Positions 9,986-49,145 of a stretch of DNA of 50,083 nt are shown piece after piece. The stretch comes from Desulfobacula sp. Lineage in GTDB: Bacteria; Desulfobacterota; Desulfobacteria; Desulfobacterales; Desulfobacteraceae. The translations under genes were made by a program, and so were the position numbers. The notes beneath the pieces were generated by a model. It was not told the DNA's origin, ran no database searches, and saw nothing but the letters and a program-made list of their open reading frames with translations. Within the stretch, counting starts at the first letter, position 1; each line of letters opens with the position of its first letter. The DNA lies in contig NZ_JABZFL010000005.1 of assembly GCF_014237455.1 (NCBI RefSeq), positions 1-50,083 of the forward strand. The letters run 5' to 3'.

Positions 9986-10026
9986 GGAATGCTTAAATTG
10001 GAATGATGTAAAAAAGGGAAGTGATC

Positions 10027-10221
10027 TTAGGATGCTTTAATTACTTTTCCTGCTTTAATACAACTTGTGCACACATCTATTTTTCTAACGCAACCTTGTT
10101 TAATAACTGCGCGAACTCTTTGAAGGTTAGGATTAAATTTTCTCTTATTCAGGTTGTGGGCATGACTGACATTATTGCCAACCATTGGTTTTTTTCCGCA
10201 AATTGCACATTTTTTCGACAT
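10027..10221 (-). CDS. rpmB: 50S ribosomal protein L28
   Basis: This 64-residue protein matches bacterial L28. It begins [11 protein letters not shown] with the first zinc-type Cys pair, has VSHAHN followed by a basic stretch, and ends with a second Cys pair, [10 protein letters not shown]. The Cys pairs mark the zinc-binding (C+) form. A TTAGGAG ribosome site lies upstream of the ATG. It stands 84 bases downstream of bamD on the same strand and may have its own promoter. Confidence 0.96.
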
Positions 10222-10305
10222 TTTTATACTCCTAAAAGAAAAATCTTTTTAAACAAAAATAACCTGGGATTGATACAGCAAAAATAAATAAAAGTAAAGA
10301 AAATT

Positions 10306-10956
10306 TTAATTTTTGTTTGCCAGCGCCCGGCACTTAGGGATTTTATTCAATGCTTCTTTGCTTTCTTTTGAATCCGGATAGGTTTCGACAAGATACTCAT
10401 ATCTTTTTAATGCAGCCTTATATTTTTTTGTTTTGTAATAAAAATTGGCCACATAGAGTTCATGTCCTGAAAGGTTGGTCACACATTTTTTAATATTTTC
10501 CTTTGCTTTTTGGGCATATTCACTTTCAGGGTATTGCTCGATAAGGCGGTTAAACTGAGTCAGGCTGTTTTTAGCAGGGGTGTGGTCCCTGTCTATCGTA
10601 TCCAGCTGGTTAAACCAGCAAAGTCCGATTCTGTAAACCACATAGGGAATGGCTTCATTCTTCGGGTGCATTCTTTCAAATTCTTCATAGGCGATAATTG
10701 CTTCATCATACTCTTCAAGATGATAATGGGAATCGGCAATTTTGAGCTCGGCTAAAATGGCATACTTACTGAACGGATACCAGTCCTTCAAGTCTGTATA
10801 GGCTTTTACCGCAGTTTTATAGTCTCCTGAAACAAAGGCAGAAGACCCTTCGGAAACAAGCTCGCCGGCATTTTTTTCCATTTCATGTGACGTTTCAAAC
10901 AAAGCGCATCCGGAAAGAAGCAAAACAATTGTAAAAAATAAAAATAGTTTTTTCAT
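10306..10956 (-). CDS. bamD: Outer membrane assembly lipoprotein BamD (YfiO/ComL)
   Basis: This 216-residue lipoprotein has an N-terminal signal with the lipobox LLSGC, so it should be acylated and held in the outer membrane facing the periplasm. TPR-like helical repeats follow (GDYKTAVKAYTDLKDWYPFS, then YDEAIIAYEEFERMHP, then YKAALKRYEYLVETYPDS). This matches BamD, the BamA-associated subunit that folds outer-membrane beta-barrel proteins. It starts only two bases after trxB ends, so it is probably transcribed with trxA-trxB. Confidence 0.9.
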   Translation of the reverse strand: MKKLFLFFTIVLLLSGCALFETSHEMEKNAGELVSEGSSAFVSGDYKTAVKAYTDLKDWYPFSKYAILAELKIADSHYHLEEYDEAIIAYEEFERMHPKNEAIPYVVYRIGLCWFNQLDTIDRDHTPAKNSLTQFNRLIEQYPESEYAQKAKENIKKCVTNLSGHELYVANFYYKTKKYKAALKRYEYLVETYPDSKESKEALNKIPKCRALANKN

Positions 10957-10958
10957 AA

Positions 10959-11879
10959 TTATAGGTTCTCAATAAAATGTTCTGCAGAAACAGCAGCAAT
11001 AGCAGCATCGCCTACCGCCGTTGATATTTGCCTTAAAGGGGTGTCTCTTACATCGCCGACAGCATATACTCCCGGAACAGATGTTTGCATGTTTGCATCA
11101 GATCGAATAAATCCGAATTTATCTGTTTCAACGGAATTATTCAAAAAAGAGGCGTTTGGTAAAATACCGACCCATATAAAACAGCCGTCCGCCTTTATGG
11201 TTTTTTCTTCATTGGTTTTTACATTTTTTACCTTGACACTCTCCACACCGAAAAAGCCTTCTACTCCGGTTGGAACACTGTCCCAGACAAGTTCAAGTTT
11301 ATCATTTGCAAAGGCACGTTCCTGTAGTATTTTAGTGGCTCTCAGCTCATCTCTCCGGTGAACCAGATAGACTTTTTTTGCAAATTTTGTCAGGTAGATA
11401 GCCTCCTGGACTGCCGTGTCTCCCCCCCCAATTGCAACCACTGTTTTTTCCTTGAAAAAAGGTGCATCACATGTGGCACAAAAAGAAATGCCTTTTCCCA
11501 TAAATTTATCTTCACCAATGCCAAGTTTTTTCGGTGAGGCTCCAGATGCAATGATGAGAGCTTTGGCTGTGATAGTCTTGTCCTTTAAAACAATTTCTTT
11601 TAATTCTTCGGAAAGATTGAGAGAGTGGACCTCTGCCGTTTCAATTTTCAGTCCCAGTTCTTCCGCCTGGACTTTCATTTTTTCAGCAAGATCAAACCCT
11701 GAAATACCTTCGGGAAAACCAGGGTAGTTTTCTATCCAGTCGGTCACCAGGATCTGACCGCCCGGTACGACTTTTTCTAATAAAAGGACATTCATCCTTG
11801 CCCTGGCGGCATAGATTCCTGCTGTCAGACCGGCAGGGCCTGCACCAATAATTACAAGGTCATAGTCAGTCGTTGTCAT
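10959..11879 (-). CDS. trxB: Thioredoxin reductase
   Basis: This 306-residue flavoenzyme transfers electrons to thioredoxin. The N-terminal FAD site is IIGAGPAGLTAGIYAAR, the redox-active disulfide is CATC near residue 133, the second nucleotide site is AIGGGDTAVQEA, and the C-terminal FAD motif is VYAVGDVRD. The length is typical of low-molecular-weight TrxB. The NAD(P)H region reads VHRRDELRA, containing HRR as in NADPH-using enzymes. It lies 12 bases downstream of trxA and two bases upstream of bamD. Confidence 0.96.
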   Translation of the reverse strand: MTTTDYDLVIIGAGPAGLTAGIYAARARMNVLLLEKVVPGGQILVTDWIENYPGFPEGISGFDLAEKMKVQAEELGLKIETAEVHSLNLSEELKEIVLKDKTITAKALIIASGASPKKLGIGEDKFMGKGISFCATCDAPFFKEKTVVAIGGGDTAVQEAIYLTKFAKKVYLVHRRDELRATKILQERAFANDKLELVWDSVPTGVEGFFGVESVKVKNVKTNEEKTIKADGCFIWVGILPNASFLNNSVETDKFGFIRSDANMQTSVPGVYAVGDVRDTPLRQISTAVGDAAIAAVSAEHFIENL

Positions 11880-11891
11880 TATAATCTCCCC

Positions 11892-12218
11892 CTAGATGAC
11901 GCCTTTGATAGTTTCCTCAAGTTTTTCTTTGGCAACCATTCCGGTGATCTGATCCGCTATTTCTCCGTTTTTAAAGAAAATCAGGGTAGGAATTGCCTGA
12001 ACACCATATTTGCTGGGGCTGACTGGATTTTCATCAACATTTATTTTTACAAAAGCCATTTTGTCGCCATACTCTTTTTCAAGGGCATCAACTGTGGGGG
12101 CAATGGCTTTACAAGGACCACACCAGGGTGCCCAGAAATCTACCATTACAGGTTTATTTGATTTGAGAACTTTATCCTCAAAGGAATCATCATCAAGTTC
12201 AATTATATTTTGTGTCAT
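11892..12218 (-). CDS. trxA: Thioredoxin
   Basis: This is a normal 108-residue thioredoxin with the WCGPCK active site, the upstream DFWAPW, and the cis-proline loop AIPTL. It reduces protein disulfides in the cytoplasm and is itself reduced by the adjacent TrxB. It is the first gene of the trxA-trxB-bamD group, behind a near-consensus promoter at 12265-12293. Confidence 0.97.
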   Translation of the reverse strand: MTQNIIELDDDSFEDKVLKSNKPVMVDFWAPWCGPCKAIAPTVDALEKEYGDKMAFVKINVDENPVSPSKYGVQAIPTLIFFKNGEIADQITGMVAKEKLEETIKGVI

Positions 12219-12264
12219 GCTAACCGTCCTAAATTTATGTTTATGGTTTAAAAAATATCTTGTA

Positions 12265-12293
12265 AATATATGTTCTTATTCATTCTTTGTCAA
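12265..12293 (-). promoter_or_regulatory. Sigma-70 type promoter of trxA
   Basis: On the minus strand TTGACA (12293-12288) is followed after 17 bases by TATATT (12270-12265). The predicted start lies about 40 bases before the trxA ATG. The match is close to consensus. Confidence 0.65.
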
Positions 12294-12318
12294 TTAATCA
12301 AATGCTGTTCGAATAAAT

Positions 12319-12366
12319 AAGGGGCAAATGCTTTTGATGATTTAATAAAAGCTGTTTTACCCCTTA
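12319..12366. terminator. Interrupted hairpin between rbr and trxA
   Basis: AAGGGG (12319-12324) pairs with CCCCTT (12360-12365), with an inner GCTTTT/AAAAGC stem. It lies just past the rbr stop on the minus strand and upstream of the trxA promoter, so it probably ends the aroF-aroB-rbr transcript. Confidence 0.5.
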
Positions 12367-12393
12367 AATTCGTATTGACAAGTATATTAAATT

Positions 12394-12969
12394 TTACCAG
12401 TTTTCAGCCAGCAGCTCAAAATGAGCCTGTGGATGGACACAAGCCGGGCACATTTCAATGGCTTCTTCTCCTTCATGAACATATCCGCAGTTTCTGCATC
12501 TCCATTTTGTACTGCTCTTTTTTTTAAATACCATTCCCGTTTCAACATTGGCAGCCAGTTCTGCATATCTTTTCTCATGTTGTTTTTCTGCCACAGCAAT
12601 CATTTCAAAAACAAGAGCAATGGCATCAAAGCCTTCTTTCCTGGCAGTTGCGGCAAAATCAGGATACATCTCTGTCCATTCATATTCCTCTCCTGCTGCA
12701 GCCGCTTTGAGATTTTCAAGGGTTGTTCCGATCACACCTGCGGGAAATGCACCTGTGATCTCAATTTCTCCGCCTTCAAGAAATTTGAAAAATCGTTTGG
12801 CATGTTCTTTTTCCTGGTTGGCGGTTTCTGTAAAAATATCAGAAATTTGAACAAAGCCTTCCTTTTTCGCTGCACTGGCAAAATAAGTATACCGGTTTCT
12901 TGCCTGGGATTCACCAGCAAATGCGGTTAACAGGTTTTTTTCAGTTTGGGTTCCTTTTAAGTTTGTCAT
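12394..12969 (-). CDS. rbr: Rubrerythrin
   Basis: This 191-residue rubrerythrin acts as an NADH-linked peroxide reductase in anaerobes. The ferritin-like diiron domain has the expected Glu and ExxH ligands (GESQARNRYTYF, EKEHAKRFF, EKQHEKRY). The C-terminal rubredoxin-like domain binds a single iron through CRNCG and CPAC. It sits 18 bases downstream of aroB on the same strand, an unusual operon partner. It may be co-transcribed with the aromatic pathway genes, although no separate promoter was excluded. Confidence 0.95.
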   Translation of the reverse strand: MTNLKGTQTEKNLLTAFAGESQARNRYTYFASAAKKEGFVQISDIFTETANQEKEHAKRFFKFLEGGEIEITGAFPAGVIGTTLENLKAAAAGEEYEWTEMYPDFAATARKEGFDAIALVFEMIAVAEKQHEKRYAELAANVETGMVFKKKSSTKWRCRNCGYVHEGEEAIEMCPACVHPQAHFELLAENW

Positions 12970-12987
12970 AAATCTTTCCTCCTTTTA

Positions 12988-14019
12988 TTATTTAAAGACC
13001 GATGTTATGAATTTATTCATTTCATCAAAGCTGATTTTTTCAACTCTTGCCCTTCCAATTTTTTCAAGGAAAACGTAAAAAAGGTCGTTGCCCTGTTTTT
13101 TTTTATCTTTACCGGCAGCGCCGATAATTTTTTTTGCATTATAATCAAGGGTTATTGGCAGATTAAGATCATGTAAGAGTGAACGGATTCTTGAAACATC
13201 TCCCTGGTTTATCAGCTGTCTGGCCTGAGAAAATCTGGCTGCAGCTACCATTCCCATGGCGACAGCTCTTCCATGACCTGCTTTTTCTATCTTTTCAATG
13301 GCATGGCCAATGGTGTGACCGAAATTGAGTTTTCTTCTTTCACCGGATTCTTTTTCATCCTGCTGGACTACTTGGGATTTGATTCTTAAGGAATCTGCGA
13401 CAAGCCTGAAAATGGTGTCATAATCAAGAGCAAGGGCTTTTTGTTTATTGTTTTCGATAAAATCAAACATGTCGGCATTTGAAATCAACGCGTGTTTAAC
13501 GATTTCAGCAAGCCCGTTTGAAATTTCATTTTTCGGCAGGGTGTTTAAAAGGTCAATATCACAAATGACAAATTCGGGCTGGTTAAAGACCCCCACCATG
13601 TTTTTATAGGAATCCAGATTAACCCCGTTTTTTCCGCCAATACTGGCATCAACCTGGGACAAAAGAGAGGTGGATACAAATCCGAAGTTTACCCCCCTTA
13701 AAAAGGTAGAAGCCGCAAATCCTGTAATATCACAGACAATACCACCACCGATTCCCACAATAAAGCTATCACGGTCACAGGAATGATGGATAAGCTCTTT
13801 GAGTATGGTTTCAACGGTTGCAAGGGTTTTAATCCCTTCTCCGGTGCCAATGGTGATGACGGGAACATTCGGGAAATCTTTTTGATAATATTTTTTTATA
13901 TTTTCATCTGTGACAATAATTGTTTGGGTGGAAGGCAAGTAGTTTTCCAGGTTTTTAAGGCTTTCTCCCACATAGATGGAAGAAAGCTTTAACTGGCCTT
14001 TAACATGGAATGTTTCCAT
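12988..14019 (-). CDS. aroB: 3-dehydroquinate synthase
   Basis: AroB converts DAHP to 3-dehydroquinate, the second step of the shikimate pathway. The 343-residue protein carries the NAD-binding GIGGGIVCDITGF and the metal-binding NFGHTIGHAIE, and the lysine-containing IGGKNGVN segment is intact. It lies two bases after aroF, so the first two pathway steps are coupled in one transcript. The end of the gene is followed closely by rbr. Confidence 0.95.
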   Translation of the reverse strand: METFHVKGQLKLSSIYVGESLKNLENYLPSTQTIIVTDENIKKYYQKDFPNVPVITIGTGEGIKTLATVETILKELIHHSCDRDSFIVGIGGGIVCDITGFAASTFLRGVNFGFVSTSLLSQVDASIGGKNGVNLDSYKNMVGVFNQPEFVICDIDLLNTLPKNEISNGLAEIVKHALISNADMFDFIENNKQKALALDYDTIFRLVADSLRIKSQVVQQDEKESGERRKLNFGHTIGHAIEKIEKAGHGRAVAMGMVAAARFSQARQLINQGDVSRIRSLLHDLNLPITLDYNAKKIIGAAGKDKKKQGNDLFYVFLEKIGRARVEKISFDEMNKFITSVFK

Positions 14020-14021
14020 TA

Positions 14022-15029
14022 TTATTTCTTAATAATTGCATGGATGGCGTTCATTTTTTCCATAACGGTAACAAACTGATCAGGATATAAAGATTGTGCC
14101 CCATCGCTCATGGCTTCTTCCGGGTTGTTGTGAACTTCAATCATTACGCCATCAGCACCTAAGGCTGCTGAGGCATAGGCAAGGGGAATAACCTGGTCTC
14201 TGACACCGGCTGCATGGCTGGGATCAACAATGATGGGAAGATGGCTTTCTTTTTTTGCTGCCGGCACAACAGACAGATCCAGCGTGTTTCTGCTGTGTCT
14301 GACAAAGGTCCTTACCCCTCTTTCACAAAGAATGATATTGGTGTTGCCTTCTTCCATAATATATTCAGCCGCCATGAGCCACTCCTGAAGTGTGGCCGAC
14401 ATCCCTCTTTTTAAAATTACAGGTCTGTCGGATTTTCCGGCGCGTCTTAAAAGACTGAAATTCTGCATGTTTCTGGTACCAATCTGAACAACATCAGCAT
14501 ATTCTTCAACAAGATTAAAGTTTTCAACATCCATGACTTCCGTTACAATGGGCAAGCCTGTTTCTTCCCGTGCTTTTGCTAAAAACACAAGACCTTGTTT
14601 TCCAAGTCCCTGGAAAGAATAAGGAGAGGTTCTCGGCTTAAACGCACCCCCTCTGAATAATTTTGCACCGGCATCTTTAACAGATTTTGCAATAGATAGA
14701 ACTTGGTTCTGGCTTTCAACAGCACAGGGGCCGGCAATTACAGGAAAGCTTCCATTGCCGAAAACAGCATCCCCAACTTTAATGTGGGTATTTTCCTGCT
14801 TAAACTCTCGGCTGACAAGTTTATACGGTTTTGTCACCGGAATAACCTCCTTTACACCGTCAAGCCCTAAAAAATGGGCGGCATCGACAGAACCCTTATT
14901 GTGCAGAATTCCGATGGATACCCTGTCTCCTCCGGGTATGGGGCGAGCGGTGTAACCTCTTCTTTCAATTGCATTTACCGCAGCTTTAATTTTTTCTTCG
15001 CTTGTGCCTTTTTCCATTACGACTAACAT
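14022..15029 (-). CDS. aroF: 3-deoxy-7-phosphoheptulonate (DAHP) synthase with N-terminal regulatory domain
   Basis: This 335-residue enzyme catalyses the first committed step of aromatic amino acid synthesis, joining phosphoenolpyruvate and erythrose 4-phosphate. The N-terminal ~70 residues form a ferredoxin-like domain of the kind that gives feedback control in the type I-beta (Thermotoga-like) group. The barrel has IAGPCAVES, FRGGAFKPRTSPYSFQG, ILKRGM and IIVDPSHAAG, covering the substrate and metal sites. The start ATG follows GGAGG. The leader carries a strong promoter, a Trp-rich leader peptide and two terminator hairpins (listed separately), so transcription is probably attenuated by aromatic amino acid supply. 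Confidence 0.95.
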   Translation of the reverse strand: MLVVMEKGTSEEKIKAAVNAIERRGYTARPIPGGDRVSIGILHNKGSVDAAHFLGLDGVKEVIPVTKPYKLVSREFKQENTHIKVGDAVFGNGSFPVIAGPCAVESQNQVLSIAKSVKDAGAKLFRGGAFKPRTSPYSFQGLGKQGLVFLAKAREETGLPIVTEVMDVENFNLVEEYADVVQIGTRNMQNFSLLRRAGKSDRPVILKRGMSATLQEWLMAAEYIMEEGNTNIILCERGVRTFVRHSRNTLDLSVVPAAKKESHLPIIVDPSHAAGVRDQVIPLAYASAALGADGVMIEVHNNPEEAMSDGAQSLYPDQFVTVMEKMNAIHAIIKK

Positions 15030-15074
15030 TGTTTTCCTCCATTTGATTTTGTATCAGTATTCAACCGTTTGAGC

Positions 15075-15103
15075 AATAAAAAAGGCTGTAGGTTTTTACA
15101 GCC
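15075..15103 (-). terminator. Intrinsic terminator in the aroF leader (attenuator)
   Basis: Read on the minus strand, GGCTGTA and TACAGCC (15103-15097 and 15090-15084) form a stem around AAAACC, followed directly by TTTTTTTATT. It ends 46 bases before the aroF ATG. The 3' arm CTACAG is complementary to CTGTAG within the upstream leader-peptide region, giving a possible antiterminator. Confidence 0.7.
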
Positions 15104-15113
15104 CTAAAATAGG

Positions 15114-15144
15114 AAAAGGCTGCAATGTTTGCCCGCAGCCTTTT
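15114..15144. terminator. Second hairpin in the aroF leader
   Basis: AAAAGGCTGC (15114-15123) pairs with GCAGCCTTTT (15135-15144) around an 11-base loop. Its GCTGC arm can also pair with GCAGC at the end of the leader peptide, so it may be one of the alternating structures of the attenuator. Confidence 0.55.
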
Positions 15145-15168
15145 TGTTTTAAGTTATGGTTTTATTTT

Positions 15169-15285
15169 TCAGGGTAGACTGCTGCTACAGGTATTTTTGC
15201 GCCACCATCGCCAAAGTGGGAAACCTGCCGCAGTGTTTTTGTCGACTTGTTGCTGCCCAATATTTGTTTCTATATACAAGAACAT
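15169..15285 (-). CDS. Putative Trp-rich leader peptide of the aroF operon
   Basis: A 38-codon frame starts at an ATG about five bases after the predicted transcription start and contains FPLWRWWR, three Trp codons within four residues, shortly before its stop. It is followed by two hairpins and then aroF. Clustered Trp codons before a terminator are the signature of ribosome-mediated attenuation, known for trp and other aromatic operons of proteobacteria. The start lies so close to the transcript end that no ribosome site fits, so translation initiation is the weak point of the model. It could also be a chance frame. Confidence 0.5.
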   Translation of the reverse strand: MFLYIETNIGQQQVDKNTAAGFPLWRWWRKNTCSSSLP

Positions 15286-17416: not shown

Positions 17417-19204
17417 CTATTCTTTTATTTTGGATACTTTAATTGCAAGATCCTGAAGCTGTGCCGTTGCTGCTTTTGACGGTGCTTCCGTCAGAAGGCA
17501 GGTTGCTTTCTGTGTTTTTGGAAAGGCAATGACATTTCTGATAGAGTCTTCTTTGCACAACAGCATCATCAGCCGGTCGAGCCCGAATGCGATTCCGCCA
17601 TGGGGTGGCGCCCCGGATGCCAGGGCATTTAAAAGAAACCCGAACTTTTCATTGGCTTCGGTTTCATCAATTCCAAGACAATCTAACACTTTTGACTGAA
17701 GTTCGGCAGAATGGATACGTATACTTCCGCCGCCGATTTCAATTCCGTTCAACACCAGGTCATAGGCCCTTGATTTAACCGCAAGAGGATTGGAAGAAAG
17801 CTTTTCAATATCTTCCTCAAGAGGTGCGGTGAATGGATGGTGAAGGGCTTGATAGCGTTTTTCTGTTTCATCATACTCAAGTAAGGGGAAGAGGGTCACC
17901 CAGGTAAATTCATAGGTATCATCAGAAATCAGCTCAAGCCGTTTTGCCAGTTCATTTCTTAACTGGCCAAGGGCTTCATTTGTGATTTTCGGCTGGTCTG
18001 CCACAAAGAAAACAATATCCCCGGGTTCAAGCTCAAGTCGTTTTCTTAAGGTCTCTTTTTCTTCATCGGTGAAGAATTTTACTATGGGAGACTGCCATCC
18101 CTCTTCTTTTATCTTAATCCAGGCAAGCCCCTTTGCTTTATATACAGCAGTAAAATCCGTCAGTTCGTCAATCTGTTTTCTGGTAAAGCTCGCGCATCCT
18201 TTTGCATTAATGGCTTTAACAAGCCCACCGTTTTTCACCACGTTTGCAAACACTTTGAACCCGGCATTTTTTACAATATCCGAGATATCACATAATTCCA
18301 GGCCAAATCGCAGGTCAGGCCTGTCCAGACCAAATCTTGCCATGGCTTCATCGTAGGTGATCTGTGAGAATGGTGTGACAAGGTTAATATCCAGCACTTT
18401 TTTGAAGATAGCGGTTATCATGCCTTCGGCAATTTCCATAACCTGCTGCTCCTCAACAAAAGAAAGCTCCATATCGATCTGGGTAAACTCGGGCTGCCGG
18501 TCCGCTCTTAAATCTTCATCCCTGAAACATTTGACAATCTGATAATATTTGTCAAAACCTGCGATCATCAATAATTGTTTGAAAAGCTGGGGAGACTGAG
18601 GCAAGGCATAAAATTCCCCTTGATTGACCCTCGAAGGAACTAAGTAATCCCTTGCTCCCTCAGGTGTACTTTTGGTCAAAAAAGGTGTTTCAATATCCAC
18701 AAACCCGTTATTATCAAGATAGTTCCTGACAGCTATGGTGGCCTTATGTCTTGCCAGAATATTGTTTTTCAGCTGGGGTCGTCTTAAATCCAGGTATCTG
18801 TACTGTAACCGAATGGATTCCGATGCTTCCACCCGGTCTTCGATCTGGAATGCCGGGGTTTTGGCCCTGGAGAAAATACGAAGCTCGTTTATCAGAACTT
18901 CAATGGCACCGGTTTTCATATTCGGATTGAGCATATCATCGGGTCGAGCAATGACTTTCCCCTTTACACCAAGGACATATTCGTTTCGAAGTTTCTGGGC
19001 TTTTTCATGAATTTTTTTTGAGACTTCCGGGTTAAAAACGATCTGAGTGATACCTTCTTTGTCCCTTAAATCAACAAAAATAACCCCTCCGTGATCACGA
19101 CGGTGCTGAACCCAGCCCATTAAGACAACATCCTTATTAATATCGGTGTCTCTTAATTGGCAGCAATGATGTGTTCTTTTTAAATCTCCTAGTAAATCTG
19201 TCAC
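17417..19204 (-). CDS. aspS: Aspartyl-tRNA synthetase (housekeeping copy)
   Basis: This 595-residue bacterial-type AspRS has an N-terminal anticodon-binding OB fold, the class II catalytic core (FRDEDLRADRQPEFTQ as motif 2, GIAFGLDRL as motif 3, PQSPQLFKQ) and the bacterial GAD insertion. The anticodon-domain loop reads HRRDHGGV. His at this position is the residue reported in the non-discriminating AspRS of Pseudomonas aeruginosa, so this enzyme may also charge tRNA-Asn. It lies 17 bases downstream of hisS in the common hisS-aspS arrangement. A second, fused AspRS occurs at 44339-46459. Confidence 0.96.
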   Translation of the reverse strand: MTDLLGDLKRTHHCCQLRDTDINKDVVLMGWVQHRRDHGGVIFVDLRDKEGITQIVFNPEVSKKIHEKAQKLRNEYVLGVKGKVIARPDDMLNPNMKTGAIEVLINELRIFSRAKTPAFQIEDRVEASESIRLQYRYLDLRRPQLKNNILARHKATIAVRNYLDNNGFVDIETPFLTKSTPEGARDYLVPSRVNQGEFYALPQSPQLFKQLLMIAGFDKYYQIVKCFRDEDLRADRQPEFTQIDMELSFVEEQQVMEIAEGMITAIFKKVLDINLVTPFSQITYDEAMARFGLDRPDLRFGLELCDISDIVKNAGFKVFANVVKNGGLVKAINAKGCASFTRKQIDELTDFTAVYKAKGLAWIKIKEEGWQSPIVKFFTDEEKETLRKRLELEPGDIVFFVADQPKITNEALGQLRNELAKRLELISDDTYEFTWVTLFPLLEYDETEKRYQALHHPFTAPLEEDIEKLSSNPLAVKSRAYDLVLNGIEIGGGSIRIHSAELQSKVLDCLGIDETEANEKFGFLLNALASGAPPHGGIAFGLDRLMMLLCKEDSIRNVIAFPKTQKATCLLTEAPSKAATAQLQDLAIKVSKIKE

Positions 19205-41322: not shown

Positions 41323-41874
41323 CTACAGGTCAACGCCTGAAGCTTTTGCCGCATTTTTTATATTGGCTATAAAAAGATCTGCGAACTGATTATTAGAACC
41401 AAGACCCCGGAGAATTATTTCAATATCAAATCCAGCCTTGCCTAATATGGTTTTCCAGGAATTTTCTTCATCACCGGCCATGTCATCGGCAGCGTGGTTT
41501 CTATCGACAATCATTAATGGTTTTAACAGGATTTTATCAATTTTAGGGGTATAATGGTTTAGCCTTTTCTTGACATCCTCAAGGCCAGGATACCCTTCAA
41601 CACTCTCAACAAAGGTTTTAACTTCAGGATAAAGCTCTCTCCTTAAGTTTTGGAGTTCAACATATATACCCGTAGACCACAACCCATTTCCATGGCCCAC
41701 ATAAACTAGGACAACTCCCTTTTGTTTGGCAAGGACTATTTTATTAAATGGGTTCCATTTATCCCTGATGGTTTTGATATCCCCGATGGCATTCACATAT
41801 TGCATTAAATCATGGTATTGTTCCATGTGAAACAAATGAATAGGCTGAACGACAATACCCTTAAATTTTTTCAT
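41323..41874 (-). CDS. cbiK: Sirohydrochlorin cobaltochelatase CbiK, N-terminally truncated
   Basis: The 183-residue protein matches CbiK from about its residue 80 on (FKGIVVQPIHL corresponds to the conserved VxVQxLH segment) to the C-terminus. The metal and proton-handling residues are retained: His in VYVGHGNG, Glu in VEGYPG, His in DRNHAADDM. The usual 260-residue enzyme has another ~80 residues at the N-terminus, which are absent. The ATG at 41874 has GAGGG upstream, so a short protein can be made. It is directly downstream of a cobalamin riboswitch. Whether this shortened form still inserts cobalt is uncertain. Confidence 0.8.
   Translation of the reverse strand: MKKFKGIVVQPIHLFHMEQYHDLMQYVNAIGDIKTIRDKWNPFNKIVLAKQKGVVLVYVGHGNGLWSTGIYVELQNLRRELYPEVKTFVESVEGYPGLEDVKKRLNHYTPKIDKILLKPLMIVDRNHAADDMAGDEENSWKTILGKAGFDIEIILRGLGSNNQFADLFIANIKNAAKASGVDL
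41819..41834. promoter_or_regulatory. Degenerate parS-like palindrome
   Basis: TGTTCCATGTGAAACA matches the 16-base parS consensus at 14 positions. It lies inside cbiK, 1.1 kb from the perfect site, and encodes conserved-type residues (LFHMEQ), so it may be a weak second site or coincidence. Confidence 0.35.
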
Positions 41875-41924
41875 AATATTCCCTCGGTTATTATGAATTA
41901 TAATAACGCGGGACAGGGCATGAA

Positions 41925-41960
41925 TAAAAAATCCCACACCAGATTTTAATCTGACATGGG
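41925..41960 (-). terminator. Expression-platform terminator of the cobalamin riboswitch
   Basis: On the minus strand CCCATGTCAGAT and ATCTGGTGTGGG form a 12-pair stem (with G-U pairs) around TAAA, then ATTTTTTATT. It sits between the aptamer and cbiK, so ligand binding can switch transcription off. Confidence 0.8.
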
Positions 41961-41984: not shown

Positions 41985-42192
41985 GATCTGCCCAGAGCCT
42001 CGCAAGCAAATAGATCAAATATTCAGGCAGATTTTCTGACTTCCGGATTTCTTTACTTGTCACGCCTTCCCATTAAAACAACTCAATTTAACAGTGGCAA
42101 ATGTGACGTTCATCCCCGGTTACAGCGGCGGGTCCGTTCCTGACTCTCACAGGATTCCCTTTTACCTGCACCTTGCAGCACCTGAAACATTT
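41985..42192 (-). promoter_or_regulatory. Cobalamin riboswitch
   Basis: On the minus strand the conserved order of the cobalamin aptamer is visible: GGTGC near the 5' end, then AAAAGGGAATCCTGTG, AGTCAGGAACGGACCCGCC, GCTGTAACCGGGGA, GCCACTG, GGGAAGGCG and CCGGAAGTCAG. It has its own promoter upstream and a terminator downstream. It should repress the cbiK-to-cobQ operon when adenosylcobalamin is plentiful. Confidence 0.92.
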
Positions 42193-42195
42193 AAT

Positions 42196-42224
42196 AAAAT
42201 AGACGTATTACAGTCACGTGTCAA
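42196..42224 (-). promoter_or_regulatory. Promoter of the riboswitch operon
   Basis: TTGACA (minus strand, 42224-42219) and TATTTT (42201-42196) are spaced by 17 bases, immediately upstream of the riboswitch aptamer. The spacing and -35 are ideal. Confidence 0.7.
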
Positions 42225-44251: not shown

Positions 44252-44280
44252 TTTACAAAAATATTTTTTTTTTCTATAGC
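44252..44280 (+). promoter_or_regulatory. Candidate promoter of the aspS2-gatA-gatB operon
   Basis: TTTACA (44252-44257) and TATAGC (44275-44280) are 17 bases apart, about 55 bases before the fused synthetase gene. The 44105-44251 part of this spacer between divergent operons shows no gene. No T-box or other riboswitch was recognised. Confidence 0.4.
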
Positions 44281-44338: not shown

Positions 44339-46459
44339 ATGCTGTACCATGACAGATTTAATTGTGGCCGGCTGGGGCTGGCCGATATTGGTAAAACCGT
44401 TCACCTTGCAGGCTGGGTTGATGCGCTTCGGGACCACGGGGAAGTGCTTTTTATCCATCTTCGGGACCGGAGCGGGATTGTTCAACTGGTTTTCAGCCCT
44501 GAATTTGCCCCTGAAGAGGTTTGCCGACAATCAACATCCCTTCGAAGCGAATACTGTATTACAGCTTTTGGCAGGATAGTACAACGGGCCAAAGGAACAG
44601 AAAATCCAAATATCGAGACCGGAGACATTGAAATTATAGTCACGGATATGACAATCCTGAGCCGGTCCGATACGCTTCCGTTTTCCATTACTGAAAAAGC
44701 CATGGTTGGAAGTGGAAACGAATCTGAAAGCCGCGAACCCGTCTCCGAAGAGTTGAGACTTCAGTACCGCTACCTGGACTTGAGACGTCCAGGTATGCAG
44801 CAATTTCTTATTAAACGGCACAAAATAAACGCCTGCATCCGAGAATTCCTGGACCAAAATGAGTTTATCGAAGTTGAAACACCGATTTTGACCAAGAGCA
44901 CGCCGGAAGGCGCACGGGACTACCTGGTTCCAAGCAGGGTCAATCCCGGGCATTTCTATGCCCTGCCGCAATCACCCCAGCTTTTCAAGCAGCTCCTCAT
45001 GGTCGCAGGCTTTGAACGATACTATCAGATCACCCGGTGTTTCAGGGATGAAGACTTAAGATCCAACCGACAGCCAGAATTTACCCAGCTCGACCTTGAA
45101 GCCTCGTTCATTGATGAAGCATTTATTTTTAATCTTATTGAAGAACTTTTGTGCCGAATGTTTGAAGCCGGTGGAACAAGTCTTCCAAGACCCTTTCCCC
45201 GCATGACCTGGCAGGAAGCTATGGACAAAACCGGATCAGACAGGCCGGATCTGCGTTTTGAAATGCACTTTGTCGAGGCAACTGATATTTTCAAGGAAAC
45301 CCGCTACAGCATCTTCAGACAAATCCTCCAGCGGGGCGGGGTAATCAAGGGAATCAATGTCAAACAGGCTTCTGACAGCCTGAGCAAAAACGTCCTCCAG
45401 AACGAATATGCAAAACAGATTGTTCCCGGATTTGGCGCCAAAGGCATGACCTGGATGCGGGTGACAGGAGATAAGCTTGATTCCAATATCGTCCAGTTCT
45501 TCAGCGATCAGGAGCAGCGGGCCATCATTGAACTATTCAATGCCGAAAATGGAGATGTGATCCTCATCATAGCTGACGCGTCCCTGGAGGTGGTCAATTC
45601 TGCCCTTGGACGTCTCCGCCTCCATGTTGCGGATCGCCTTGACATGATCCCCAAAAACAGGTTCGAACCGGTCTGGGTCACGAATTTTCCATTGTTTGAA
45701 GCCACAGAAGAGGGGGTGACTTCCAGCCATCATCCTTTTACTGCCCCGGACCGAATGGATTTCGATCCCACCGATCAGGAAGATCTTCTCTCCCTTTTGT
45801 CCCGCTCCTATGATATTGTTGTCAACGGTGAAGAATTAGGCGGAGGCAGTATCCGTATCCATGATCCTTCCATCCAGCAGAAGGTGTTCACGGCCCTTGG
45901 ACTTTCGCCCCATGAGGCAGAAAAAAAATTCGGCTTTTTCCTCAAAGCTCTTGATTTTGGCCCGCCGCCCCATGGCGGCCTTGCCCTTGGCTTGGACCGG
46001 GTGGTTGCCATGATTCTGAAGACCCCTTCCATACGGGAGGTGACAGCCTTTCCAAAGAACAGAAGTGCTTTTTGTCCCATGACCCGGGCGCCATCCCGGG
46101 TGGCCCATGAACAGCTTGTAGAACTGGGCCTGCTGGATCTTGGCAAAATCGAGGCTCTTCCTGGTTCGGATCAGGAGCAGGAGACCATTGACTATCTTTC
46201 CTGGGTTTCCAGAATCGGTTTTGAGGAGGATGAACGGTCCATGATCCAAAGCGCACTTGAAGATGCCGTGAGGATGGCTAAGGAAGTCTCTGGCAATGCC
46301 CGGGAATACGAGCCTGCTATCTCGGTGTTCCGGGGACAGAATCGTTTCAGAAAGGGCAATGCAGCCACAAGGTCCTCATTTGTCAAAACCCGTGACCTGT
46401 TTAAAAATACTCCTTTTGTAAAGGGGGATTACTTCAAGGTTGCCAGTATTCTTGAGTAA
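44339..46459 (+). CDS. Second aspartyl-tRNA synthetase fused to a C-terminal GatC domain
   Basis: Residues 1-600 form a complete bacterial-type AspRS: OB-fold start (GWVDALRDHGEVLF, with the non-discriminating-type His), STPEGARDYLVPSR, motif 2 FRDEDLRSNRQPEFTQ, the GAD insertion and motif 3 LALGLDRV. Residues about 610-706 match GatC, the small subunit of the aminoacyl-tRNA amidotransferase: a helical ETIDYLSWVSRIGFEEDE start and a C-terminal RDLFKNTPFVKGDYFKVASIL like the GatC NAPxxxDGYFxVPxVL end. GatA- and GatB-like genes follow directly. The fusion should tether Asp-tRNA production to the amidotransferase-like partners. AGGAAAAGGAAG precedes the ATG. Confidence 0.9.
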   Translation: MLYHDRFNCGRLGLADIGKTVHLAGWVDALRDHGEVLFIHLRDRSGIVQLVFSPEFAPEEVCRQSTSLRSEYCITAFGRIVQRAKGTENPNIETGDIEIIVTDMTILSRSDTLPFSITEKAMVGSGNESESREPVSEELRLQYRYLDLRRPGMQQFLIKRHKINACIREFLDQNEFIEVETPILTKSTPEGARDYLVPSRVNPGHFYALPQSPQLFKQLLMVAGFERYYQITRCFRDEDLRSNRQPEFTQLDLEASFIDEAFIFNLIEELLCRMFEAGGTSLPRPFPRMTWQEAMDKTGSDRPDLRFEMHFVEATDIFKETRYSIFRQILQRGGVIKGINVKQASDSLSKNVLQNEYAKQIVPGFGAKGMTWMRVTGDKLDSNIVQFFSDQEQRAIIELFNAENGDVILIIADASLEVVNSALGRLRLHVADRLDMIPKNRFEPVWVTNFPLFEATEEGVTSSHHPFTAPDRMDFDPTDQEDLLSLLSRSYDIVVNGEELGGGSIRIHDPSIQQKVFTALGLSPHEAEKKFGFFLKALDFGPPPHGGLALGLDRVVAMILKTPSIREVTAFPKNRSAFCPMTRAPSRVAHEQLVELGLLDLGKIEALPGSDQEQETIDYLSWVSRIGFEEDERSMIQSALEDAVRMAKEVSGNAREYEPAISVFRGQNRFRKGNAATRSSFVKTRDLFKNTPFVKGDYFKVASILE

Positions 46460-46483
46460 TTGAGAAATACGAAAGGATTTTTC

Positions 46484-47728
46484 ATGGAATCTAAGATCTT
46501 TACATATATAAACACCTCAACCCTGTCCAGAGAGGACGGCTCCATGGCCGGGACCAATGTGGCTGTTGAGTCCGGCATATCCGTTGCCAACTGGCCTACG
46601 GATGCCCAGTCCCCGGCCCTTGAAAATTATGTGGCCCTTGAAGACGCCACTCTGATACTGCGCCTGCGCAATGCCGGAGCAAAGCTCAAAGGGAGGACCT
46701 TGATGGGGGAACTTGGTCTGGGTCTTGACAGGGATACCTGCGGTGATGCCATAAACAGCGGACTTTCTGATGTTGTGCTGAAAACAGACACCACGGGCGA
46801 GGCAAGGATGGCGGCTGCAATCTCCGGCTGTTTTGGGTTTAAACCGAGCTATGGCCTTATCTCCCGTTTTGGCCTGTTCAGCCTTATCCCATCCATGGAG
46901 ACCTGCGGCATCCTTTCCGGGTCCCTTGAAACGATTTCAAAAACAATTCACACCATGGCCGGATTTGATGAGCGTGATCCGTCCATGGACGAATCCGGCA
47001 TTGATCAGGCCATGTCCCAATTTAATTTTCAGGAAGATTTCCAGGATGGCCCTTTGACCGTGGGCCTGGTCCGGGAATGGAATACAGTCATGGGGCAAAG
47101 TGGAAACAAAGGATTCGAACAGGCTGTTGCAACACTTGGCAAGGCCGGTGTTCAGATTAAAGAGGTCTCCATCAAAGACTTTTCCCTTGCCAGGACCGTT
47201 CACAACGTGATCGGAACCGTTGAGGCATCGTCCAGTGCCGGCAGGTTCGACAGTGTCCGCTACGGGCACAGGACATCGGCTTTGGTAAAGAACTGGAATG
47301 AGATGTACGTTAAATCCCGTGGTGAATCCTTTGGCCCGCTGGTCAAAGCCTATCTTTTCCAGGGGGGATATTTTCAGTACCAGAATTACAGCGCCTTTCT
47401 GGATGCCTGCCGCATCAGGGCCCGTTTGATCGAAACCTTTGAAAAAGCGTTTGAAACCGTGGACCTGATCGCTCTGCCCGTGTCTGGTAATTATGGACCA
47501 ACGACTGAAAAGCCGGACACAGTATCTGACTTCTATGATATTTTTTCTTTGACGCTTCTTGCGAATCTCACCGGGAACCCGTCGATTTCTATTCCCGGGC
47601 CTGTCAATGACGGCAACACCGGGCCTGCCCTTCAACTTATCGGTCAAAGGTTTAATGATGCACGATTGCTTGCCCTTGCAGCCAGCGTATCCGACATCTA
47701 TACAGGAGAGATGCACCATGAAATATGA
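46484..47728 (+). CDS. GatA-like protein lacking amidase catalytic residues
   Basis: The 414-residue protein aligns with the amidase-signature subunit GatA (LRNAGAKLKGRT, GFKPSYGLISRFGL, LANLTGNPSISIPG), but about 70 N-terminal residues are missing. The Ser-cisSer-Lys triad is lost: the Lys region AVKDN is AVESG, the GGSSGGSA loop is CGDAINSG, and the nucleophile motif DTGGS is DTTGE. It therefore should not hydrolyse glutamine. The ATG at 46484 has GAAAGGA six bases upstream; the frame opens at a TTG 24 bases earlier. It lies between the AspRS-GatC fusion and gatB, overlapping gatB by 11 bases. Confidence 0.88.
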   Translation: MESKIFTYINTSTLSREDGSMAGTNVAVESGISVANWPTDAQSPALENYVALEDATLILRLRNAGAKLKGRTLMGELGLGLDRDTCGDAINSGLSDVVLKTDTTGEARMAAAISGCFGFKPSYGLISRFGLFSLIPSMETCGILSGSLETISKTIHTMAGFDERDPSMDESGIDQAMSQFNFQEDFQDGPLTVGLVREWNTVMGQSGNKGFEQAVATLGKAGVQIKEVSIKDFSLARTVHNVIGTVEASSSAGRFDSVRYGHRTSALVKNWNEMYVKSRGESFGPLVKAYLFQGGYFQYQNYSAFLDACRIRARLIETFEKAFETVDLIALPVSGNYGPTTEKPDTVSDFYDIFSLTLLANLTGNPSISIPGPVNDGNTGPALQLIGQRFNDARLLALAASVSDIYTGEMHHEI

Positions 47729-49145
47729 AGCCGTAATCGGTCTTGAAATTCATATACAGCTGAACTCAGCCACCAAGATGTTCTGCGACTGCGCCAACAA
47801 CCCTGGTGACGATCCAAACACCAATGTCTGTCCTGTCTGTCTCTGGATGCCCGGAGCCCTTCCTGTCTTGAGCCGGGAAGTACTGGAAAAGGCAACCCTT
47901 GCCTGCCTTTCCCTTAATTGCGAGATTCAGGGTGAAAGCGCCTTTGACCAGAAGGTCTATTACTATCCTGATCTTCCCAAGGGATTCCAGCTTTCCCAGG
48001 CCCATAAGCCTCTTGCCAGGCAGGGCTGGGTGGAAATTCTGGATGAACAGGGAAATTTGAAAAAACTCAGCCTCCACCATGTTCACATGGAGGAGGATGT
48101 GGCAAAGCTGGTCCATGAAATCGAAGGCAGAGTTCCCATAAGCCTGGTAGATTTCAACCGTGCAGGCACACCTCTTATTGAAGTTGTCACAGAACCCGAG
48201 CTCAAAAGCCCCCATGATGCCATGGAATTTTTAAAAGCCATAAGAAACCAGGTTCGGTACACGGGCTGTGCCGAATGCAGCATGGAATCCGGGACCATGC
48301 GGTGCGATGCAAACATCTCCATTCGGCCTGCGGGCAGTGACCAGCTCAATACCAAGGTGGAAGTCAAAAACATGAATTCCATCCACCATGTGGGTGATGC
48401 CATTGCCTATGAGATCAAACGTCAGATCGATTCGTATAACAACAATGAACCCATTGTGCTGCACACCCGGCTGTGGGACCCTGAAAAACATGTCACCACT
48501 GCCATGCGGGCCAAGTTTGAAGGGCCCTGCATTCCCGATCCTTGTGTTCCTTTGATCGTCCTGACCGACCCCTGGCTTGAAAAGATAAAATCCCTTCTTC
48601 CGGAGATGCCCGGTCAGAAGGTAAAACGATTTGTCCAGGAGTATTCATTGATCCATGACGAAGCCGTACTCATGAGTTCCGAACGAGGGCTTTCCGAGTT
48701 TTTTGAATCCGTTGTAACCCTTGGCGCACCTGCGCGCATGGCAGCAGGCAGGATAGCCAGCCAGCTTCTTCCTGCATTAAAGGCCCATGGGCAGACCCTG
48801 GCAGACACCAGTATCACCCCTGAAAGATTTGCAGGCCTGATCCAATTGCTTGAAAAGGGTGAGATCAATTCAAACTCAGCCAAATCTGTGCTGGAAAAAC
48901 TCTTTGAGACTGACAAAACACCCGGACAAATCGTTGAACAATTCGGTTTCAGGCAGGTATCTGATACTGCTGAGCTTGCAAAAATTGTTGACAAGATTAT
49001 TTCTGACAATGTTTCCGCCGTGACCAATTATAAAAACGGAAATAAAAAATCCATGGGCTTTCTTGTGGGACAGGCCATGAAAGTCTCCCGGGGCAAGGCT
49101 AATCCCAAGGTCATCCAGGAGATTATTAAGGAACTATTGGCGTAA
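47718..49145 (+). CDS. gatB: GatB-like Asp/Glu-tRNA amidotransferase subunit B
   Basis: The 475-residue length is normal for GatB. Present are the start VIGLEIHIQL (metal Glu/His), the CDC...CPVC zinc-type cysteines, HMEEDVAKL, DFNRAGTPLIEVV, RCDANISIRP and the C-terminal tail domain (GFLVGQAMKVSRGKANP) that contacts tRNA. The normally strict DYRYFPEPDLPP motif is replaced by CIPDPCVPL. The ATG at 47718 has AGGAGAG upstream; the open frame extends further 5' inside the gatA-like gene. With a dead GatA, it may act as a kinase on Asp-tRNA using another amine source, or not act as an amidotransferase at all. Confidence 0.88.
   Translation: MKYEAVIGLEIHIQLNSATKMFCDCANNPGDDPNTNVCPVCLWMPGALPVLSREVLEKATLACLSLNCEIQGESAFDQKVYYYPDLPKGFQLSQAHKPLARQGWVEILDEQGNLKKLSLHHVHMEEDVAKLVHEIEGRVPISLVDFNRAGTPLIEVVTEPELKSPHDAMEFLKAIRNQVRYTGCAECSMESGTMRCDANISIRPAGSDQLNTKVEVKNMNSIHHVGDAIAYEIKRQIDSYNNNEPIVLHTRLWDPEKHVTTAMRAKFEGPCIPDPCVPLIVLTDPWLEKIKSLLPEMPGQKVKRFVQEYSLIHDEAVLMSSERGLSEFFESVVTLGAPARMAAGRIASQLLPALKAHGQTLADTSITPERFAGLIQLLEKGEINSNSAKSVLEKLFETDKTPGQIVEQFGFRQVSDTAELAKIVDKIISDNVSAVTNYKNGNKKSMGFLVGQAMKVSRGKANPKVIQEIIKELLA

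Follow-up and report, generated by a model that had tools for sequence, protein, structure and literature searches.

Indirect aminoacylation in bacteria has been described as a glutamine-dependent process carried out by separate proteins that assemble for the purpose. The Asn-transamidosome, made of a non-discriminating aspartyl-tRNA synthetase (ND-AspRS), the amidotransferase GatCAB and tRNA-Asn, is one such assembly (PDB 4wj3, 3kfu). Thermus and Deinococcus possess a second AspRS for tRNA-dependent asparagine synthesis, which is of archaeal origin and uses the shared GatCAB, as given in the available part of PMC4206432. Ammonia as an amide donor also has precedents: yeast mitochondrial GatFAB takes NH4Cl in place of glutamine in vitro (available part of PMC4027206) and the NAD synthetase family has glutaminase-less, ammonia-using members (PMC3376133, part of the text). 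Here we describe a related locus in a 50,083-nucleotide stretch of the Desulfobacula sp. assembly GCF_014237455.1 (contig NZ_JABZFL010000005.1, positions 1 to 50,083; hereafter the window). Three genes lie head to tail at 44339-49145, coding for an AspRS-GatC fusion, a GatA-like protein and GatB, hereafter the trio. An earlier note, made from the letters of the window, had reported this cassette; it is genuine, and the arrangement recurs in further loci. Judged from sequence comparison, the trio is a real, conserved and accessory system of the Asn-transamidosome kind, whose architecture has already been named.

Loss of the glutaminase site in the GatA-like subunit

The alignment comprised 38 GatA-like proteins of at least 350 aa (from the window, L030, L034 and 35 loci of the genome scan described below). 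In all 38 another residue takes the place of the catalytic Lys, the Gly-Ser loop (GGSSGGS) is deleted and the nucleophile Ser is changed to Glu, which usually sits in TDTxGEARxAA; we take the catalytic roles of these residues to be those of the Ser-cisSer-Lys arrangement of GatA. The EVxRR stretch of canonical GatA reads LVKxY or similar, with the Glu and both Arg lost in 38/38. In yeast GatA, R334 recognises glutamine and E330 binds R334 (available part of PMC4027206), and by spacing and alignment with S. aureus GatA we would place both residues in the EVxRR stretch. The non-catalytic GatA proposed in the earlier note is borne out, as catalytic and glutamine-binding residues alike are gone. 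The sequence evidence for a trio working without glutamine is strong, and given the loss of the active site the system is probably glutamine-independent.

The GatA fold itself is kept in the predicted structure (pLDDT 87.8), with GatA 3h0l_A as best PDB match (TM-score 0.88); among the 50 matches listed in the structure search, the significant ones were all GatA or amidases. Other invariant or nearly invariant residues are retained, for instance in GEAR and VEASS. Ratios of non-synonymous to synonymous substitution rates (dN/dS) against five relatives were 0.19-0.30 for the GatA-like gene, 0.07-0.13 for the fusion and 0.09-0.11 for gatB. The GatA-like gene is thus constrained, though less than the fusion or gatB, and the range of 0.07-0.30 over the trio indicates purifying selection on all its genes.

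A GatB with intact ATP site and replaced motifs

GatB of the trio matches 3h0l_B along its full length and 4wj3_B over residues 1-395, and its domain architecture is intact; the significant matches among the 50 listed for its model were all Gat subunits. Residues E10, H12, E125/E126, E155 and N218 are invariant in 33 trio GatB rows. The ATP and Mg ligands of yeast GatB are named in the available part of PMC4027206, and our own motif-based mapping from the yeast protein would make these residues their counterparts.

At 26 columns the residue invariant in eight canonical GatBs (seven from relatives of the window genome and one from the Firmicutes locus L075) gives way to another, which at least 90% of the 35 trio rows (each 400 aa or longer) share. 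The QETR motif has become LHTR and KEEAxDYRYFPDPDL has become KFxG---PCxPDPxV; further swaps are R78 to Q, N80 to V and A128-G129 to V-A.

The AspRS-GatC fusion

Residues 7-598 of the fusion match the bacterial AspRS family NF001750 (761 bits), and the AspRS part aligns to PDB 4wj3_M over residues 8-597 (E 2.3e-153), the domain scan finding OB-fold, class II core and GAD domains. Fusion residues 2-706 match positions 19-723 of NF009460 (PRK12820, 'bifunctional AspRS/GatC') in full length, with 1183 bits, under the curated cut-off of 1379. The earlier note's assignment of the C-terminus to GatC fared unevenly by method. Single-sequence scans of residues 628-701 were sub-threshold (PF02686, 17.1 bits against a cut-off of 23; TIGR00135, 18.2 against 47.1), whereas profile comparison supports GatC: an alignment of eight sequences matched S. 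aureus GatC 2df4_C with E 0.014, and hhalign of 15 fusion C-termini against two canonical GatCs gave a probability of 97.4% over 90 columns, the match spanning the entire domain. Identification of the C-terminal domain as GatC is therefore supported at the profile level.

Fusions of at least 600 aa were used for residue counts. Every row covering the AspRS active-site motifs has them, some slightly altered (for example HHPMT in L059 and QSPQLFKQML in L034). The OB-fold His (RDHG) occurs in 33/33 spanning rows and Gly at the KGTENP position in 34/35, L060 having Asp; we take these two to be the non-discriminating residues of P. aeruginosa AspRS. Thirty positions are trio-specific (35 trio against 22 canonical rows), several of them in the anticodon-binding fold, where changes include R to L and D to H, and one in the motif-2 loop, with D in 22/22 canonical rows and N243 in 35/35 trio rows. 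With their contacts assigned as we presume them to be, one reading of these positions is specialisation for tRNA-Asn. The host tRNA-Asn carries U1-A72, the pair named for GatCAB in the available part of PMC4206432.

In S. aureus, GatB N52 is reported to contact GatC (PMC4027206, available part). This position is Ser in 34/35 trio rows, and the GatC Asp paired with it is, by our reading of the alignment, lost in 34/35 (L059 excepted), as would be expected of a private fusion-GatB interface.

Distribution and inheritance of the trio

A scan with the fusion C-terminus over one genome each of 84,980 species returned 39 loci; L075, a Firmicutes gatCAB without fusion, was removed, leaving 38 further fusion loci. 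Of these, 37 have a same-strand GatA-like gene and 35 a GatB of some kind, the contig ending before the GatA-like gene in L069 and before GatB in L044, L052 and L069. Since the fusion recurs in so many loci with same-strand partners, it is not due to chance. The gene order is held wherever the contig reaches, apart from L066 (fusion and GatA-like gene about 1 kb apart), L057 (fusion split over two frames) and L048, where remnants of the gatA front and gatB tail (10715-11827) lie beside a full-length fusion, a product of either decay or assembly error.

The carriers, a minority among sulfate reducers and their relations, are titled Desulfobacterales, Desulfobacteraceae, Syntrophobacteraceae, Syntrophorhabdaceae and similar, with two Nitrospirota; for many the title goes no further than Deltaproteobacteria or Proteobacteria, and NCBI labels assign these to Myxococcota or Pseudomonadota. 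As they include named cultured species, among them Desulfocicer vacuolatum DSM 3385 and Desulfosarcina alkanivorans PL12, the trio can be tested directly. In a sample drawn evenly across the phylum, with carriers recognised by the GatA-like gene alone, degenerate GatA was found in 17 of 395 genomes (the window's own included) from 12 families; among relatives of the window genome, one counted as a carrier if its match was full-length, or partial but near-specific (G024 and G049 being fragments). Many carriers are metagenome-assembled genomes of unstated completeness, so that absences in them carry little weight.

A quick GatB tree placed the 35 trio rows in one group against the eight canonical ones (SH-aLRT 100, with one long-branch warning), the two Nitrospirota rows nesting among other trio rows. 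Over 29 loci the genes' distance matrices show correlations of 0.91-0.96, with mean identities of 71% for the fusion, 69% for GatB and 52% for the GatA-like protein, the last having 41-86% identity to the window protein in those scan loci where it occurs. The G+C content of the trio is 0.49-0.52, against 0.30-0.48 for 36 other window genes measured. The tree, the G+C contrast and the correlated distances suggest that the trio moves and is inherited as a whole unit; it has probably spread horizontally.

Beyond the trio, with window genes from 34000 onwards considered, the most frequent neighbour cluster occurs in just 7 of the 41 sources and is, by sequence links, a broad kinase-type cluster. 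A special tRNA travelling with the trio was considered and rejected: tRNA genes occur in 2/42 loci scanned, several of them short and with differing flank coverage, at least 4 kb off (one Pro in L054, two Ser in L057), and none lies in the window. Carriage by phages or plasmids was likewise dismissed, as all matches in 21 phage and 646 plasmid records were below 60% identity, the ten listed for each being 27-30% identical and GatA or amidase where annotated. No viral contig was confirmed.

Canonical genes in the window genome

The assembly containing the trio totals 3,477,403 bases in 113 contigs. Canonical gatC and gatA are on contig 8, with GGSSGGSA and TDTGGSIRQPA motifs, asnS is on contig 63, canonical gatB lies elsewhere in the genome, and a separate normal aspS, as the earlier note had stated, is present in the window (Table 1). 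Because all of these exist outside the trio, it is accessory. The view that housekeeping charging does not need it thus stands, and the objection that the genome might lack any other GatCAB fails.

Table 1 Features of the trio locus and its context in the window
Feature	Position	Strand	Basis and remarks
AspRS-GatC fusion, open reading frame	44339-46459	+	706 aa
AspRS part of the fusion, residues 1-598	44339..46132	+	domain, profile and PDB matches, alignment; active-site motifs present
GatC domain of the fusion, residues 628-701	46220..46441	+	domain scan, profile comparison
GatA-like subunit (pseudo-glutaminase)	46484..47728	+	profiles, alignment, fold model; without catalytic or glutamine-binding residues
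GatB	47718..49145	+	ATP/Mg residues kept; trio-specific motifs at residues 75-82, 128-129, 249 and 266-271
Housekeeping aspS (context, outside the trio)	17417..19204	-	
Promoter-like TTTACA-17-TATAGC	44252..44280	+	upstream of the fusion; alignment with relatives

The open reading frame of the GatA-like gene is listed from TTG 46460, and a purine-rich stretch precedes ATG 46484, which is the likelier start. The gatB start codon, ATG 47718, lies inside the end of the GatA-like gene, an 11-base overlap reaching to the GatA-like stop. A promoter-like element precedes the fusion in the window and in 6/7 aligned relatives (not in L037), and a TTGACC element is at a similar place in 8/12 upstream regions of a second set. 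A strict consensus scan gave 6 sites where 5.5 were expected, that of Table 1 not among them, and the element is suggestive only. Elsewhere in the window, a cobalamin riboswitch (RF00174, 109.6 bits; 42009-42200, minus strand) is located just 5' of a CbiK-like gene, likewise on the minus strand (41323-41937), whose best stretch covers positions 131-261 of the 262-position family and which is perhaps a divergent or shortened chelatase.

Possible functions of the trio

The reading we favour, tentatively and at a little short of even confidence, is that the trio forms a tethered transamidosome, in which Asp-tRNA (probably tRNA-Asn) is activated and then amidated by free ammonia. The fusion, the AspRS motifs, the ATP/Mg residues of GatB, the loss of the GatA site, the co-inheritance and the purifying selection are all legible in the alignments; the tRNA-Asn substrate, the ammonia nucleophile, the Asn product and the assembly of the complex are what we infer. 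The AspRS domain would charge Asp, most likely onto tRNA-Asn, and the fused GatC would hold GatB and pseudo-GatA permanently on the synthetase. GatB would use ATP to phosphorylate the beta-carboxylate of Asp-tRNA, and free ammonia, not derived from glutamine, would attack to give Asn-tRNA, pseudo-GatA acting as a structural or gating subunit. With an active-looking AspRS, the kinase site intact and the glutaminase lost, attack by free ammonia demands the least assumption; the use of NH4Cl by yeast GatFAB and the ammonia-dependent NAD synthetases are parallels in its favour. The earlier note had expected no Asn-tRNA by the usual glutamine route; this holds for glutamine, but Asn-tRNA itself may still be formed with ammonia, because yeast GatFAB accepts NH4Cl in vitro.

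Several points weigh against this reading. Support for the free-ammonia step is indirect. Host aspS likewise has the OB-fold His, with Gly or Asp at the second place, so the non-discriminating sign fails to set the fusion apart. The replacement of GatB motifs by new conserved ones goes beyond relaxation and hints at new chemistry or coupling. Canonical GatA was above cut-off in 53/57 trio genome rows, which would make an Asn-tRNA role redundant, and an AsnRS match at E <= 1e-90 was found in 31 and not in the other 26 (the 57 rows are 51 distinct genomes, six being counted twice, with canonical GatA in 47/51 and AsnRS in 30/51). In the phylum sample asnB was above cut-off in 10/17 trio genomes and 240/378 others (Fisher p 0.80). 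As carriage tracks neither asnB across the phylum nor AsnRS, another nucleophile or product may be involved. The beta-aspartyl phosphate on tRNA could be passed to a nucleophile other than ammonia, yielding a non-standard aminoacyl-tRNA or an aspartyl-derived metabolite. We regard this as unlikely, if worth serious attention: it would fit the independence from asnB and the occurrence with and without AsnRS, the trio-conserved GatB motifs (LHTR, PCxP and others), a GatA that has lost its glutamine site yet keeps the GEAR and VEASS residues, and the AspRS positions of the anticodon-binding fold. The lack of a widely shared neighbour gene or tRNA speaks against it, and the second substrate would therefore have to be a common metabolite or made elsewhere; moreover, T. 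thermophilus GatB (3kfu_F) has QAT at the QETR site, hence not all the motifs changed in the trio are universal outside the clade. It is rather doubtful that aspartate on tRNA is turned by the trio into a so far unrecognised derivative, serving as a building block or as an additional amino acid delivered genetically, and equally so that the redesigned GatB, together with the pseudo-GatA and the changed anticodon fold, constitutes a dedicated second system. The roles in modified amino acids, small-molecule synthesis or regulation raised in the earlier note gain nothing from neighbouring genes and are still conceivable.

A dedicated source of asparagine where asparagine synthetase is missing, comparable to the extra AspRS in Thermus and Deinococcus, would suit the window genome, which has AsnRS, no asnA match and no asnB above cut-off. 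Among relatives at least 90% complete (n=43, window genome included), asnB was found in 4/10 carriers against 27/33 others (p 0.017), but relatives are not independent, over all 58 of them the contrast weakens (4/10 against 34/48, p 0.078), and 19/40 trio genomes have asnB above cut-off; asnA was found in 1/57 genomes tested (40 carriers, 17 others), a non-carrier. Replacement of asparagine synthetase, suggestive among relatives and vanishing in the phylum sample, was accordingly rejected as a general account, and we consider a dedicated asparagine source quite improbable. A regulatory or spare second AspRS complex, for example one escaping an inhibitor, with Gat parts that merely bind tRNA or regulate, is improbable too: the scattered accessory distribution, the raised G+C and the promoter-like element shared with close relatives agree with it, whereas the cohesion of the trio, the purifying selection and the kept ATP/Mg residues of GatB do not. 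That we are looking at the decaying remnant of a duplicated gatCAB operon is hardly credible, even though the GatA-like gene evolves fastest by identity and dN/dS and L048 holds mere remnants of gatA and gatB; GatA-like identity to the window's protein is kept, its dN/dS is well below 1, and the trio GatBs form one supported group.

Comparison with known systems

The earlier note knew of no described system of this kind. The fusion architecture had in fact been named (NF009460), but for the dead GatA, the remodelled GatB and the function no description was found, nor was the fusion itself treated in any paper listed, a weak negative as the literature available to us mostly lacked subscription journals. 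New here are the recurrence of the fusion, the distribution and constraint of the dead GatA, and the trio-specific GatB motifs. If the favoured tethered, ammonia-using transamidosome is real, a glutamine-independent version exists beside the normal one, which would mean a second way to asparagine or new tRNA-dependent chemistry.

The Firmicutes locus L075 (CAKMKG010000046.1, uncultured; 9989-15179) encodes gatC, a canonical gatA and a 1130-aa GatB-AspRS open reading frame with a bacterial AspRS, by its sequence a different covalent transamidosome architecture.

The trio has the same protein components as the Asn-transamidosome, from which it differs in the covalent AspRS-GatC fusion, a GatA without glutaminase site and replaced GatB motifs, and, in the window genome, in co-existing with a full canonical set. 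NF009460/PRK12820 describes the same full-length fusion; the window protein scores below its cut-off, and the model name is silent on the dead GatA. The second AspRS of Thermus and Deinococcus is likewise an extra AspRS beside the housekeeping one in a genome with AsnRS (available part of PMC4206432), whereas the AspRS of the trio is bacterial-type, with a GAD domain, and has its own Gat subunits. Ammonia-using single-domain NAD synthetases carry out ATP-dependent amidation without a glutaminase (PMC3376133, part of the text), as the trio would if it uses ammonia; in those enzymes the glutaminase part is absent, while in the trio it is kept as a conserved pseudo-enzyme.

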